Both the position numbers and the translations under genes were made by a program. This document shows positions 34,239 to 57,620 of a stretch of 64,000 bases of DNA, piece after piece. The stretch spans positions 1-64,000 of the forward strand of contig DAHWKJ010000028.1 in the NCBI GenBank assembly GCA_027343695.1, given 5' to 3'. The notes beneath the pieces are model-generated. The model was not told where the DNA came from. It was given only the letters and a program-made list of their open reading frames with translations, and searched no databases. Each line of letters opens with the position of its first letter. Within the stretch, counting starts at the first letter, position 1. This DNA comes from Sulfobacillus sp. Its GTDB lineage: Bacteria > Bacillota > Sulfobacillia > Sulfobacillales > Sulfobacillaceae.

Positions 34239-34498
34239 GAGAGGCGGCCTCATCCACGCTAAAAACCTAATGTTATTAAATCAACGTATCCATAAATACC
34301 AATGACCCTCGCCTCAGGAGCGATGCGAGAGTCATTGGCTGTGTCTTTTTGCGCCGAATGACATCGGTCAGAGCTTCACTGACTGTGGAGAGAATACCTT
34401 ATCTGACAGACACTGACTTTGTTGCCGGGGATGAATCGGCTCGAGCTTCGGGATGTTAACTACAGGTGAGATCGCAGTGCAAGGAGGTGAGCGAGCTA

Positions 34499-35779
34499 AT
34501 GCACAAAGGACGTCGTTGGTCGTCAAAAAAATTGATGGGTTGGGTGAGTGCGGCGGTGATGTTAGGGCTCGGATTCTCACCACCTCTAGAAAATATGGCG
34601 CGATGGCCAAGTCAAATCATCGTCCCTCAAGGGGCAGCCCTAGTACTGCCTTGGAGTGGCGTGCTCCCGTTTCAGGCCCGCGCTAGTCACGGCGTCGTCG
34701 TGCATACTAGTGCTACTGGGCAAGAAATTCGCCTTATCGGGCAAAAAATTGGTCCAGCGTCAGTACGGCTCGAACTGTTCGGGTGGTTGCCATGGCGAAC
34801 TGTACCGGTCGAGGTGGCGCCGCCGCAGGTGAATGTGGTACCGGGTGGTGAGTCCGTGGGAATCGTGGCGCGTACCCGTGGACTTATCGTCACCGCACTG
34901 AATCCGGTGCTTATTAAGGGTCATCGAGTGGATCCCGCAGCAGATGCGGGTATTGAACGGGGAGATATCATTGTGGCCATTAATCATCAACCGGTGACGT
35001 CAGACCACCATCTCCAGGAGGCTGTGGACCAGGCAGGCGCAAAAGGGGTTCCAGTCGAATTGTTCGTGAAGGGTGCGCGCACAACCCACGAACGTCCGAT
35101 AAAGCCGGTGTGGGACCCCAAAACGCGTCGGTGGCAACTAGGGGTGCTGGTCCAAGATACGACGAGTGGAGTGGGCACCCTGACGTTTTTCTACCCAGGC
35201 TCTAAGGACTACGCCGCCTTGGGCCATAGCCTTACCGATGGCTTGACGCGTCGCCCCGTCAGCATTGCGGAAGGACACCTTAGTGGAGCCGAAATCGTCG
35301 GGGTCGTTGCGGGGACGGCGATCGCCCCCGGCCAAAAGGTGGGGGTCTTGGCGGGTGGCTACAATATTGATGGCAGCGTAACCTATAACGGCCGGTTCGG
35401 TATTTTGGGCCGTCTGGACCACCGTCCCCGATGGGGGCCGACTGGCTCTATGCCACTGGCATTACCGGATCAGGTCCACCGCGGCAAAGCACGTATCATC
35501 ACGGTGATCCATGGTCAGCGCCCAGAAAGCTTTCGTATCAAGATATTACGCACTTATCCGCAGTGGCAGCCTAATACTAAGGGATTGTTATTTGAGGTAA
35601 CAGACCGGCGACTCTTGAAGCGGGCTGGAGGCGTGGTTCAAGGAATGAGCGGTAGTCCTATTATTCAGGGGGGAAGGGTGGTGGGTGCCGTGACCCACGT
35701 CCTCTTGAATCGACCCAATCTGGGATTTGGGTGTTACGCGTATTGGATGGCGACCCAAGTTGCAGCGCATTCAAAGTAA
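34499..35779 (+). CDS. spoIVB: SpoIVB serine peptidase (PDZ + S55)
   Basis: VPGGESVGI, PDZ, GHSLTD...VVQGMSGSPIIQGGRVVGAVTHVLLNRPNLGFGCYAYWM; ATG 34499 after aaggagg. Confidence 0.94.
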   Translation: MHKGRRWSSKKLMGWVSAAVMLGLGFSPPLENMARWPSQIIVPQGAALVLPWSGVLPFQARASHGVVVHTSATGQEIRLIGQKIGPASVRLELFGWLPWRTVPVEVAPPQVNVVPGGESVGIVARTRGLIVTALNPVLIKGHRVDPAADAGIERGDIIVAINHQPVTSDHHLQEAVDQAGAKGVPVELFVKGARTTHERPIKPVWDPKTRRWQLGVLVQDTTSGVGTLTFFYPGSKDYAALGHSLTDGLTRRPVSIAEGHLSGAEIVGVVAGTAIAPGQKVGVLAGGYNIDGSVTYNGRFGILGRLDHRPRWGPTGSMPLALPDQVHRGKARIITVIHGQRPESFRIKILRTYPQWQPNTKGLLFEVTDRRLLKRAGGVVQGMSGSPIIQGGRVVGAVTHVLLNRPNLGFGCYAYWMATQVAAHSK

Positions 35780-36077: not shown

Positions 36078-36863
36078 ATGGCATTGAAGGTGTTAATTGC
36101 AGACGATAACCGCGAGTTTTGCGAGTTGCTCAACGAGACCATCAGTAGCGAGGATGGTCTCGAAGTGGCGGGCGTTGCAAATCACGGCATGGAAGTCTTA
36201 GAATTCTTAGCACATCAGACCGTCGATGTAGTGGTATTGGATATTATCATGCCACACTTGGACGGGATCGGGGTGTTAGAGCGACTGCGGGAAATGGATT
36301 TGGCAAGACCTCCCAAAGTCATCATTCTTACGGCATTTGGGCAAGAAACTATGACACAGAAAGCGTTGGAATTGGGTGCGGACTATTACATTTTGAAACC
36401 GTTCAATCTCAGGGTATTGGCGGCACGCGTCAAGCAACTGGGTGCCGACGTAGCTACCACCCAGCCTAGGCCGGCCACCAGCTCTGGTAAACTTCAAGTG
36501 CTTCCCGTAAAACATCTCGACGTGGAAGTTACCAACGTGATTCATGAGATCGGAATTCCAGCCCACATCAAGGGCTATCTCTACTTGCGTGAAGCGATTC
36601 TCATGGTGGTGAATCGGGTGGATTTATTAAGTGGCGTCACCAAAGAGCTGTATCCTGCGGTTGCGGTTAAGTATAAGACCACCCCGAGCCGGGTTGAACG
36701 AGCGATTCGACACGCTATTGAGGTAGCATGGGCGCGAGGCAATGTCGATGTGATCAATGGCATTTTTGGGCATACGGTGAATCGAGACCGAGGCAAGCCG
36801 ACTAACAGTGAATTTATCGCCATGGTAGCAGATAAATTACGGATGCAAATCAAAGCGAGCTAG
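36078..36863 (+). CDS. spo0A: Sporulation master regulator Spo0A
   Basis: Receiver [12 protein letters not shown] / [20 protein letters not shown]-terminal [35 protein letters not shown]. Confidence 0.97.
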
Positions 36864-37181: not shown

Positions 37182-38249
37182 ATGAACATATTCGAATCGA
37201 TGGAAAAGTTTGGTCACGAAGAACTGGTATTTTGGTATGACAAAACCACGGGTCTGAAGGCCATTGTGGGCATCCACGACACGACGTTAGGACCTGCCTT
37301 AGGTGGCTGTCGCATGTGGCCCTACGCCAGCGAAGATGAGGCGATTGTCGATGTCATGCGTCTATCTCGGGGCATGACTTATAAGAATGCCGCGATGGGA
37401 TTGGACTTAGGGGGCGGCAAGTCGGTGATTTGGGCTGACAGCCGACAAGATAAGTCTGAGGCGTTATTTAGGGCTTTTGGTCGCCTCATACAAAGCCTTG
37501 GTGGGCGGTACATTACGGCGGAAGATGTGGGCATTAACGCAGAAGACATGGCGCTTGTGGCCCGGGAAACCGAATTCGTGGGCGGACTTAAGGAAACCAG
37601 CGGGGATCCATCCCCGGCCACTGCATTAGGAGTTCTCGTAGGGATGAAGGCTGCGGCCAATTTGGTCTGGGGCACCGAGAGCCTTCAGGGCCGGACCGTG
37701 GCAGTGCAAGGTTTAGGTCACGTGGGTGGAATCTTAGCACGTATGCTGGCGGACGAAGGGGCGACGCTCATCGTCACCGATATTCACTCCGATGAGGGAA
37801 GGGCCTTGGCGGCCGAGCTGAAGGCCGACTGGGTAGAGCCTAACGATATTTATGGGGTATCGGCCGATATTTTTGCTCCATGTGCCTTGGGAGCCATTTT
37901 AAACGATGAAACTATTCCTCAGTTGAAATGCCGGGTAGTTGCGGGTTCGGCCAACAACCAATTAAAGGATCCGCGGCATGGACTGGACCTCTTGAAACGG
38001 AATATTGTCTATGTTCCCGACTACGTCATCAATGGCGGGGGTGTCGTCAATGTGGCGGATGAGTTCCACCGTGACGGCTATCACCCGGAGCGTGCCTATG
38101 CTCGGGTTAGACAAATTGGGGGCCAAGTGTCAGAAATTCTTAACCGGGCTCAGGTGGAGAGGATCCCGACGCAGGAAGCAGCAGATCGGCTCGCTGAATC
38201 TCGCATCCATGTATTGGGGCGGGTTTATAGTACCTACGTCCCAGAATAG
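37182..38249 (+). CDS. Glu/Leu/Phe/Val dehydrogenase family (leucine dehydrogenase-like)
   Basis: GPALGGCRMWPYASEDEAIVDVMRLSRGMTYKNAAMGLDLGGGKSVI; QGLGHVGGILARML. Confidence 0.92.
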   Translation: MNIFESMEKFGHEELVFWYDKTTGLKAIVGIHDTTLGPALGGCRMWPYASEDEAIVDVMRLSRGMTYKNAAMGLDLGGGKSVIWADSRQDKSEALFRAFGRLIQSLGGRYITAEDVGINAEDMALVARETEFVGGLKETSGDPSPATALGVLVGMKAAANLVWGTESLQGRTVAVQGLGHVGGILARMLADEGATLIVTDIHSDEGRALAAELKADWVEPNDIYGVSADIFAPCALGAILNDETIPQLKCRVVAGSANNQLKDPRHGLDLLKRNIVYVPDYVINGGGVVNVADEFHRDGYHPERAYARVRQIGGQVSEILNRAQVERIPTQEAADRLAESRIHVLGRVYSTYVPE

Positions 38250-38273
38250 TCCTCGTCTCAAAGAGGAATTTCC

Positions 38274-38315
38274 AGAAACGGTATCGAATAGTCCCTTGAT
38301 ACCGTTTCTATTTTC
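38274..38315 (+). terminator. Intrinsic terminator after amino-acid dehydrogenase
   Basis: agaaacggtatc gaatagtccctt gataccgtttct attttc. Confidence 0.75.
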
Positions 38316-38360
38316 ATTTGAAGCGAGAAAATTTCATTTTTTGAAGGAGTACACACATAG

Positions 38361-39095
38361 ATGGCGGGTGACATCGAACAGGTACCGGTTAGTGACATCG
38401 AGAATCTTATCTTGAAAATTCCGATGGTGCTGAAGTGCCATGTCACGATAAATGATTGGGGTGGCGTTGAAGAGATTCATGCGTTAAGCACGGTCGAGCG
38501 AGCACCCAAGCAAATCGTACGAGATATCGAAAGTGCGCTGTTGTCGCAATGGAATCTTCGGGTTGACCATAAACGTATCTCGATCGCACAAATTGTGGCG
38601 GATGAACCCACTCTTACCATGGGCCGATTGGTCATTGGGGAATATTTCATGGATTGGGACACGGCGAATCAAATGGGTCATGCGACGGTGACGTTACACC
38701 CGGGGAACGACCGGATGCGCGAATATCAAGGTGAATGGCAAGGACGCTATATCCCGAGCCAGTATCATCATGTCATGGCCCATGCGACCATCGAAGCGAT
38801 TAACCGCATTCCGGATCTTCGGGACCGATTTATCTTGGCCGAGCTACGGACCTTGGCGTTAGCGAATCGGTCGGTAGTGGTCGTGGGGATAAGTTATCTG
38901 AATCAAAGAAGGCGCGAAGAAGTACTAATCGGCGCTGTCCAAGAGCGGGGCGATGGTCAAGGGGCGGCTATTCGGGCGGTGCTCGACGCCATTAATCGGC
39001 GGATTTCTGGAACTGACAAACCGACCCTTGAGGCATTGTTGGGGGGATGGGACCTCCGGCCGGACACCTCAAGTGCGGAAGTAGAATCGGAATAG
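38361..39095 (+). CDS. Conserved hypothetical protein, apparently two-module
   Basis: LKCHVTINDWGGVEEIHALSTVERAPKQIVRDIESALLSQWNLRVDHKRISIAQI plus a C-terminal alpha/beta region; good ORF but no family I can name. Confidence 0.7.
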   Translation: MAGDIEQVPVSDIENLILKIPMVLKCHVTINDWGGVEEIHALSTVERAPKQIVRDIESALLSQWNLRVDHKRISIAQIVADEPTLTMGRLVIGEYFMDWDTANQMGHATVTLHPGNDRMREYQGEWQGRYIPSQYHHVMAHATIEAINRIPDLRDRFILAELRTLALANRSVVVVGISYLNQRRREEVLIGAVQERGDGQGAAIRAVLDAINRRISGTDKPTLEALLGGWDLRPDTSSAEVESE

Positions 39096-39109: not shown

Positions 39110-39457
39110 ATGGCTAATCAGAAAAAGTCATGGGTGGAGGTGCCGCAATATGAAAGGTCCGGAGCGGCACGCGTGCCCCATATGAAGTCGAGCCCTTCGA
39201 AGCCGGGACAGCCGACGCCCTCACCGGCACGGCACAGCCATGCCCAAGAAGCACTCTTTAACGAATGGCTGACCCAACAAGTGCGCCTTGAGGTGGTCTT
39301 TAATGATGGGTCCACCCACTATGGAACCCTCACCGACTTTGACACTTATGCGCTGACCATCGCCTCCGACGGACACCCGTCGCTGGTGTTTAAGTCTGCG
39401 GTGCGTTTAATTCGTTTGGTGCCGAAGGAGGATGCCAAGGTTGGGCGTGACGGGTAA
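39110..39457 (+). CDS. Hfq/Sm-like RNA-binding protein with ~45-aa N-terminal extension
   Basis: QEALFNEWLTQQVRLEVVFNDGSTHYGTLTDFDTYALTIASDGHPSLVFKSAVRLIRL aligns by eye with Hfq Sm1 (NGxxxxGxxxxFDxF) and Sm2 (xxVYKHAIxxI). Confidence 0.68.
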   Translation: MANQKKSWVEVPQYERSGAARVPHMKSSPSKPGQPTPSPARHSHAQEALFNEWLTQQVRLEVVFNDGSTHYGTLTDFDTYALTIASDGHPSLVFKSAVRLIRLVPKEDAKVGRDG

Positions 39458-39822: not shown

Positions 39823-40978
39823 ATGTTGAAAGCCTATCGCTATCGTCTCTATCCAACCGACGAGCAAGCTGCCTTCCTGAACCGCCAGTTTGGGTCAGTG
39901 CGCTATGTCTACAACTGTGCGTTAGCGTTGGCGACCACGACCTACCAGACGCAAGGCCAGGGGATCACGCGGTTTCAGTTAGACAAACGTCTCACCGCGC
40001 TGAAACAGGAATTGTCGTGGTTAGGCGAAGTGGCGTCGCAACCCTTGCAACAAGCGTTGGTGCATTTGGATAAAGCGTTCACGCGGTTTTTTCGGGAGAA
40101 AAAAGGGTACCCCCGCTTCAAGCCGAAGCGCGGCAAGCAAAGCGCGACCTATCCCCAAGGCGTCAAAATTCATTGGGAGAACGGCGTCATCTATTTGCCC
40201 AAGGCGGGATGGATTCGCACCGTATTCAGTCGCCGCTTTTCGGGCACCGTGAAAACCGTCACCGTCAGTCGCGTGCCCTCCGGCAAGTTCTTTGTCTCGG
40301 TACTCGTTGAGGACGAAAACCAAGTCCCTGACGCCATAGCAGAAACATGGGAACGTGCCGTAGGTGGCGATCTCGGACTCCACGACTTCTTGGTGCTTTC
40401 TACCGGGGAAAAGTGTGGGCATCCCCAATGGTTGGAATCTGAATTGTATCGCCTGAAGATCCTCTAGCGGAGATTAGCCAAAACGGCTAAAGGGTCGAAG
40501 AATCGCACGAAGATTCGCCGCAAAATAGCGATTGCATGAGCAGGTGGCGAACCGGCGACAGGATTTCTTGCACAAACTGAGTACGGACCTCGTGCGTCGG
40601 TTTGATACCATCTGCATCGAGGATCTGAACGTGGCCGGAATGGCGCGGAATCATGCCTTAGCCCGACGGATTGCGCAGTCCGGCTGGGCGGAATTTCGTC
40701 GCCAACTGGAATATAAGGCTCAATGGTACGGCAAGCATGTGCGCGTCATCGGACGGTTTGCGCCGTCCTCGCGCCTCTGTCTTTGTGGCTACTACAACCA
40801 CGATCTCACGCTGGCCGACCGTCAGTGGGATTGTCCGAATTGCGGACGCCACCATGACCGCGATGTAGTCGCGGCGAACAATATTAAACGCTTCGCCGTT
40901 GCGAAGCACCCGACAGGGCGGGACACGCCCGGTGAGCCTGGGGAGCCCCCTCTTGTGGACGAACGGCGCAAGCCCTAA
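39823..40978 (+). pseudogene. tnpB: TnpB (RNA-guided nuclease family/OrfB) disrupted by an amber codon and a frameshift
   Basis: Part 1 39823-40467 (MLKAYRYRLYPTDEQ...GGDLGLHDFLVLS), TAG at 40465, same-frame continuation RRLAKTAKGSKNRTKIRRKIA, shift near 40525-40535, part 2 HEQVANRRQDFLHKLST...IEDLNVAGM...CPNCGRHHDRDVVAANNI. Confidence 0.85.
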
Positions 40979-41058: not shown

Positions 41059-41130
41059 ATGGATTCTCCGCTGAAAGGAGCGGGCGCTAGACGGGTTGAA
41101 TGCGTTGAGGCAATAGCGTCCATACGACAA

Positions 41131-41661
41131 ATGGAAAAACCAAACGGACCTGGGATCGAGGTGTTTGCGGGGCGCGCCGTTTCGGTTCGCGTTGATCCCG
41201 TTATCGTGGGGGACCGGCAAGCAACCCGCGAGGTTGTCGAACGGGTTGCTGCGGTGGGCATTATTGCCGAAGACAGTGACGGACACATCGTGGTGATTTT
41301 CCAATATCGATGGCCCATCCAACGGTGGTGCTGGGAGCTTCCCGCCGGCAAAATTGATCCGGGTGAGTCGGCCTTAGAGGCGGCCCAACGGGAACTTGCC
41401 GAAGAGACGGGATATCATGCCGAATATTGGGAGTCGGTGCTGGAGTTCTATCCATCGCCCGGTTATAGTACCGAACGGATGACAGTCTTCTATGCCAGGG
41501 AGCTAACCGCCACCACACCTGAGCCAGAAGAAGACGAAGATATTCAAACGGTGCTGTGGGACCGTGCGCAACTCGAGCAGCATTTGCGACGAAACGACGG
41601 GCTCAATGCGCTCTGGGTAGTAGCTGTTCAATGGTGGCTCAACCGTCCACGCAATCCGTGA
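41131..41661 (+). CDS. nudF: NUDIX hydrolase, ADP-ribose pyrophosphatase-like
   Basis: Nudix box GKIDPGESALEAAQRELAEETGY; family-like N-terminus VFAGRAVSVRVDPVIVGDRQATREVVE; start uncertain. Confidence 0.85.
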   Translation: MEKPNGPGIEVFAGRAVSVRVDPVIVGDRQATREVVERVAAVGIIAEDSDGHIVVIFQYRWPIQRWCWELPAGKIDPGESALEAAQRELAEETGYHAEYWESVLEFYPSPGYSTERMTVFYARELTATTPEPEEDEDIQTVLWDRAQLEQHLRRNDGLNALWVVAVQWWLNRPRNP

Positions 41662-41971: not shown

Positions 41972-42604
41972 ATGGTCGCCTCGCAACCGGGACTGAGATG
42001 GCAAGAACAATTGCACCGATATCAAACACCGCTCATTATCGCCGTGAGTACCTTTGCCTTGGGGATTTTGTTTGGGGTGATGGCGGTTGGGACGCTTACC
42101 CCCGCCGACAAAGCCTCTCTGGTGGCGTATTTGCATCGATTTATCGCTGGACAAGCTTCAACCCCCGAGGGATCGTCGTTGTTTTCCCGGGCAGTCGTGG
42201 ACAATCTTAAAGTGCTAGGCTTATTGTATGTATTGGGTATCTCGGTTGCCGGAATGCCTCTTGTGGCGCTGGTGGTGTTCTTTCGTGGCTTTGTGTTGGG
42301 ATTCGCAATGGGGTTTGTGACCACAACAATGGCGTGGCAGGGGGTGTGGTTTGGGGTCGTTGTGGTCGGGCTGCAAAGTGCCTTTATGGTACCCGCCACC
42401 ATGCTGGTGGCGGCCGGCGCCTTGGGGTTTTCCTGGAGTCTCGTGGCGCCACGATCCACGACTGTTCGCCATAGCGTGCTCGAACAATTTGTGGGTCTCA
42501 CGTTTTTGGTGGTGGCTATGGGGGCCGTGGTGGTCGTGGGCAGCGCCTGCGAGACACTCGTTGCACCATTCTTGGTCCACTTGTTGCGTAACTGGGGGAT
42601 TTAG
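41972..42604 (+). CDS. spoIIM: Stage II sporulation protein M
   Basis: Polytopic; NLKVLGLLYVLGISVAGMPLVALVVFFRGFVLGFAMGF; adjacent to nudF as in Bacillus. Confidence 0.88.
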   Translation: MVASQPGLRWQEQLHRYQTPLIIAVSTFALGILFGVMAVGTLTPADKASLVAYLHRFIAGQASTPEGSSLFSRAVVDNLKVLGLLYVLGISVAGMPLVALVVFFRGFVLGFAMGFVTTTMAWQGVWFGVVVVGLQSAFMVPATMLVAAGALGFSWSLVAPRSTTVRHSVLEQFVGLTFLVVAMGAVVVVGSACETLVAPFLVHLLRNWGI

Positions 42605-57206: not shown

Positions 57207-57620
57207 TAAGTGTAAAAGGCTCCCTTCCTTCCATTATTGCCTTCGAGGTTAGTTGTGAGGTTCGGGCTGGAGGCGCCCTACGCAAGTTTGCGATTCACCA
57301 AAAGCATTTACGCTTTTTATTCCCCCGTACGTTTTCGTTAAAAAACGATTCGGCTTTGAAGGAGTCAACGTTACACTACTCGACAATAATCGATACGTCA
57401 TGGCTGAAATTGTCGCAAGAGGAATTATTTTCCGCGCTGGAACGTATTGAGAGCCTCCAATCTGCAAAATTCGCAGTAATTCACGTATGTGGATTTAATT
57501 GGATGGATCGATTAGCTGAAAGAATGGCAAATAGAACTTTACAGGAAGATCCGTAATCCCATATAATTCGTGAGGTGTGAATTGTTAACGTGATGTAAAC
57601 AAATGGGGAGGCTAGGGGAG

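Follow-up and report, generated by a model that had tools for sequence, protein, structure and literature searches.

The window, by which we mean the whole analysed stretch of 64,000 nucleotides of Sulfobacillus DNA, carries in order an MGDG-synthase-like glycosyltransferase gene, spoIVB, spo0A, a ScyB-like dehydrogenase gene, orf244, hfqL, a NUDIX hydrolase gene and spoIIM (Table 1). The gene of interest, hfqL, encodes an Hfq-like Sm protein (HfqL). The original prediction of an ORF with an Hfq/Sm fold at 39110-39457 was borne out: the coordinates are exact, the Pfam Hfq match lies above the gathering cut-off, and the AlphaFold model and fold matches agree. Its placement just downstream of spo0A was also right, with two genes (the ScyB-like dehydrogenase and the 244-aa ORF) in between. 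hfqL is a real and well-conserved gene, and it is its function that we infer.

Table 1. Positions of hfqL, the parts of its product and the neighbouring features in the window, with supporting evidence
Feature	Position (strand)	Evidence
SpoIVB peptidase S55	34466..35779 (+)	PF05580, 209 bits
spo0A	36078..36863 (+)	TIGR02875, 384 bits (cut-off 200)
ScyB-like Glu/Leu/Phe/Val-type dehydrogenase	37182..38249 (+)	Pfam, NCBIfam
Terminator-like hairpin and T-rich tail, between dehydrogenase and orf244	38274..38319 (+)	14-pair stem
orf244, 244-aa conserved protein of unknown function	38361..39095 (+)	14-nt gap to hfqL
hfqL, Hfq-like Sm protein, 115 aa	39110..39454 (+), stop codon 39455-39457	Pfam, AlphaFold, PDB fold matches
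N-terminal anchor, conserved: W8-V-E-V-P12 and A19-A-R-V-P23	39131..39178 (+)	Pairwise identity
Ser/Pro/basic linker, variable, residues 24-40	39179..39229 (+)	Identity 0.15; pLDDT about 50
Hfq/Sm domain, residues 41-102	39230..39415 (+)	Pfam, alignment, AlphaFold
C-terminal tail, short, unconserved, residues 103-115	39416..39454 (+)	Identity 0.08; dN/dS about 1.2 (104-115)
NUDIX hydrolase, which usually follows hfqL in relatives	41107..41661 (+)	PF00293; synteny
SpoIIM	41972..42604 (+)	PF01944; synteny

The spo0A locus and its variation

The hfqL ORF opens with an ATG at 39110, 14 nt after orf244, and is provided with an AGGAGG-type ribosome-binding site; orf244 and hfqL are probably co-transcribed and translationally coupled. 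Because a strong hairpin stands between the dehydrogenase gene and orf244 (RNA fold z-score of -5.2 for 38250-38360), the pair probably forms a unit of its own, and terminator-like sites in the region as a whole are not in excess over shuffled sequences. The orf244 product matches no Pfam or NCBIfam model. Of the 154 class genomes, 127 contain relatives of it, often in two copies, with a conserved 'PKQ[IV]VRD[IV]ES' motif, and orf244 is thus a widespread family without a model in either database. In the spo0A-locus copies examined, orf244 adjoins hfqL.

Between hfqL and the NUDIX gene, a TnpB/OrfB gene (IS605-type) at 39823-40978 (+) is split into two ORFs (HTH_OrfB, 214 aa; OrfB/TNB, 148 aa). 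As the NUDIX gene closely follows hfqL in the relative L032, the split gene would seem to be an insertion peculiar to the window genome that is now broken. Further along the window, a c-di-AMP (ydaO/yuaA) riboswitch is located at 57223-57365 (-), with a score of 71.1 bits against a cut-off of 38.

The order of genes around hfqL is kept across the family members examined that have the gene and in G091 of family f3; within the own family, the dehydrogenase is occasionally missing or insertions occur. It is looser in G043 (f23), G058 (f27) and f2. The f2 copies (L071-L074), directly 3' of orf244, are extremely divergent HfqL proteins in which the K56-H57 pair (Hfq numbering) has become R-W, R-Q or R-H and an N-terminal '[WY]VR' start is retained. 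The hfqL copies of f26, f34 and f35 lie elsewhere, with none found near spo0A, and the neighbours of the f34 and f35 copies revealed no spo0A link; any link with sporulation is therefore not universal. In addition, four genomes from two genera of the own family (G094, G095, G099, G100; loci L076-L079) have lost hfqL cleanly, with orf244 followed directly by the NUDIX gene and the neighbours at the spo0A locus kept, so the gene is dispensable for some members.

An Hfq/Sm domain behind a conserved N-terminal extension

Residues 46-101 of HfqL match the Pfam Hfq family PF17209 at 31.2 bits (E 1.7e-7; gathering cut-off 27). The AlphaFold model, a monomer built from two sequences (the window protein and L032), consists of a helix (44-57) and five strands (58-64, 69-77, 81-86, 89-94 and 98-105), with pLDDT values that are mostly 86-92 for the strands but about 50 for residues 1-43. 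All of the best 50 fold matches of this model in the PDB are Hfq, with sequence identities of about 16-26%. A sequence search against solved structures matched Hfq chains weakly (best E 0.012, 1kq1); the non-Hfq matches were limited to weak EDC3 ones, ranked below most Hfq. An LSm/SmAP identity was considered and rejected, given the lack of any LSM match in Pfam and the best fold matches to Hfq. The Hfq equivalog cut-offs of NCBIfam are missed (TIGR02383, 28 against 61.7 bits; NF001602, 16.7 against 95). Residues ~44-105 are an Hfq/Sm domain, yet HfqL is no ordinary Hfq, because it falls below these cut-offs, sits at the spo0A locus instead of beside miaA, and belongs to a family in which none of the genomes searched yielded a canonical hfq.

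In canonical Hfq, variation usually sits at the C-terminus (PMC6561178). In HfqL, the mean pairwise identity among 18 non-redundant sequences is 0.60 for residues 8-12 (WVEVP) and 0.47 for residues 19-23 (AARVP). The Sm domain and its strands reach 0.44-0.45, whereas the linker (24-40) falls to 0.15 and the C-terminal tail to 0.08. E10 is invariant, and P12 and R21 are conserved in at least 90% of the 16 aligned sequences (alignment A1). Between the window gene and L032, dN/dS stays at 0.04 over residues 1-40 and 0.03 over the Sm domain but reaches about 1.2 over the last 12 residues; these ratios are rough, since synonymous sites are near saturation. The starts of distant members are similar by eye ('RWVRVG', 'RFIRIG', 'QFIEFIP'), and own-family members mostly have an extension with a net charge of +4 to +6.

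The N-terminal extension is thus true coding sequence under purifying selection. It is also more than plain disordered filler: because conservation of the WVEVP-like motif and the later R-V equals or exceeds that of the Sm strands, it consists of a conserved anchor motif and a free basic linker. The disordered, basic and proline-rich extension first described therefore stands as far as the extension itself and its linker are concerned (pLDDT about 50), but residues 8-12 and 19-23 are conserved throughout the family and not featureless.

In Hfq, U-rich RNA is bound at the proximal face by Gln8, Phe42, Lys56 and His57, of which His57 is linked to 3'-end recognition, and A-rich RNA at the distal face by Tyr25 (PMC5379935). 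The window protein carries the proximal pocket residues Q46 (equivalent to Q8), Y80 (F42, within F77-D-T-Y80) and K95 (K56, within F94-K95-S96, which corresponds to Y55-K56-H57), with Ser96 at the His57 position and Thr at the Gln41 position; its distal Tyr25 position is Val, and there is no Arg at 16/17. Among 39 HfqL sequences, K56 and Tyr at 42 are found in all (39/39 each) and Q8 in 34/39, while Gln/Asn41 is replaced by Thr in 33/39 and Tyr55 by Phe in 36/39. Position 57 is Ser in 14, His in 13 and Gln in 12. Tyr25 occurs in 0/39 and R16 in 9/39, and most rim arginines are lost. The canonical rows used for comparison have YKHA in 34/34. The mean net charge of the Sm core is -2.3 in HfqL versus +1.8 in canonical Hfq, and such an acidic core could mean weak RNA binding. 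Compared with canonical bacterial Hfq (TIGR02383/PF17209), HfqL shares the Sm fold with its N-terminal helix, Gln8, Lys56 and an aromatic residue at 42, but differs in scoring below the equivalog cut-offs, in the change of YKHA to FKSA, in the loss of the distal Tyr25 and rim arginines, and in its acidic core, conserved extension and spo0A locus as opposed to miaA-hfq.

A separate lineage in place of canonical Hfq

In a tree of 73 Sm domains, 39 HfqL sequences split from 34 canonical rows on a branch of length 1.42 with support of 100/100. The tree has 65 columns, so its inner order is weak; some HfqL rows are long branches, and some f34/f35 sequences are placed nearest to canonical Hfq. An Sm-domain profile (A2) gives scores of about 77-102 bits for HfqL proteins against about 42-68 bits for canonical Hfq, a gap that arises partly by construction as the profile was built from HfqL. 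In a sample of 399 genomes of the phylum, HfqL-level scores were confined to the own family (G000, G098, G111), and the remaining hits among the matches listed scored like canonical Hfq; the HfqL members of other families come from a search of the class. HfqL is a well-supported separate clade that our searches found only in this class. It looks like an old paralogue of Hfq, not a drifted orthologue, since in one genome (G058) HfqL coexists with a canonical hfq that immediately follows miaA. A drifted orthologue of canonical hfq is disfavoured by this genome and by the separation in the tree. Our literature search, mainly of open-access sources, found no paper on Hfq in Sulfobacillus or on an HfqL variant.

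The original prediction had left room for a second, canonical hfq near miaA. In the own genome (83.6% complete), miaA lies on an assembled contig (G000:C14) and is not followed by hfq; hfqL was the one Hfq match when the whole genome was searched. Nor does an hfq follow miaA in G110, G111 or G091, and no canonical hfq was found in the same-genus G098 (100% complete) or in the other own-family genomes searched. Canonical Hfq is present in many other families of the class, at about 90-121 bits. Eight of 48 families have HfqL and 31 have canonical Hfq, with an overlap of 1 where 5.2 would be expected; the P value of 0.002 treats families as independent and is only a guide because they are related. 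In most genomes of its own family, HfqL was the sole Hfq-type protein found, and it stands where ordinary Hfq has disappeared in that family and a few related ones. Separately, two genomes with HfqL contain a second, weak Sm/Hfq-like ORF (L086, G109:C1:267029-267187; L089, G069:C218:523-690), scoring 29 and 41 bits with profile A2.

Hfq paralogues are known from Burkholderia (Hfq2) and from the pXO1 plasmid of B. anthracis. These are second Hfq-type genes in their genomes, and we liken HfqL to them by description only.

Possible modes of action

The proximal pocket for U-rich RNA is largely kept. However, HfqL has mostly lost the distal (mRNA) face and rim arginines of canonical Hfq, which makes ordinary sRNA-mRNA matchmaking doubtful, and the original proposal of a divergent sRNA chaperone is supported only in part. 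We lean, with slightly better than even confidence, towards HfqL being a ring that would bind U-rich RNA at its proximal face, lack the usual distal mRNA face, and be tethered through its N-terminal motifs, either to a partner or to the rim of the ring. HfqL would assemble as a hexamer whose central proximal pocket, with Gln8, Lys56 and a stacking aromatic kept, would bind U-rich RNA 3' ends. The six W-V-E-V-P...R-V motifs, on their flexible basic linkers, may attach to a partner protein or to the rim of the ring itself, and RNA would then be held or delivered instead of annealed between two faces. A role around sporulation entry is suggested by the genomic position, and this is the weakest step of the reading. 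The spo0A position is weak evidence for sporulation, because the gene is missing from some relatives that keep the locus and unlinked in others. A possible model for the extension is provided by Aquifex aeolicus Hfq, whose N-terminal tail contacts RNA at the rim and covers the neighbouring lateral site (PMC5379935); that tail is a few residues long, compared with about 40 in HfqL.

In evolutionary terms, we tentatively propose, at somewhat less than even confidence, that HfqL represents a new Hfq subfamily that arose at the spo0A locus, took the place of canonical Hfq in one Bacillota family and became a tethered, one-faced ring. In this proposal, the N-terminal motif would anchor the ring to a sporulation-related or other partner, and the proximal pocket would hold RNA ends, or no RNA at all.

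Cyanobacterial Hfq has Gln at position 57, as does one HfqL branch. An alternative that we hold to be unlikely, by analogy with that protein, is that HfqL no longer acts on RNA and is a protein adaptor ring organising a membrane or sporulation complex through its N-terminal motif and rim. The cyanobacterial pilus-associated Hfq keeps the fold but not key RNA-binding residues, binds RNA with very low affinity and works with PilB and EbsA (PMC10989914). HfqL is similarly divergent with altered RNA-binding residues: it is mostly without H57, Y25 and the rim arginines, its core is acidic, and the f2 members have exchanged the K56-H57 pair. It differs in keeping Lys56 and Gln8, in its N-terminal extension and in adjoining spo0A. 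The conservation of these two residues speaks for a nucleotide pocket that is still present in HfqL proteins other than those of f2.

It appears improbable that HfqL is nothing more than this lineage's canonical Hfq after relocation and drift, still acting as an sRNA-mRNA chaperone in the usual way, on spo0A mRNA for instance. Families hold HfqL or canonical Hfq almost exclusively, as such a replacement would have it, and in C. difficile spo0A is regulated by Hfq-bound, Hfq-dependent sRNAs (PMC10267692). Against this, G058 has both genes, with the canonical one directly after miaA, and HfqL, which forms a separate clade on a long branch, has lost residues of the distal face and the rim. A chance or decaying ORF, or an extension created by a mis-called start, might be suspected from the low identity to known Hfq, but is highly improbable and is refuted by purifying selection on both the Sm domain and the extension, synteny in many genera, conservation of the N-terminal motif and plausible ribosome-binding sites.

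If the tethered-ring reading is true, the loss of canonical Hfq together with a one-faced, tethered version beside spo0A would be a natural experiment on which part of the Hfq ring is indispensable. The lineage also raises the question of whether sporulation entry has an Hfq-type protein wired into it, and the anchor motif and the neighbouring orf244, both conserved, offer direct, testable handles on it.
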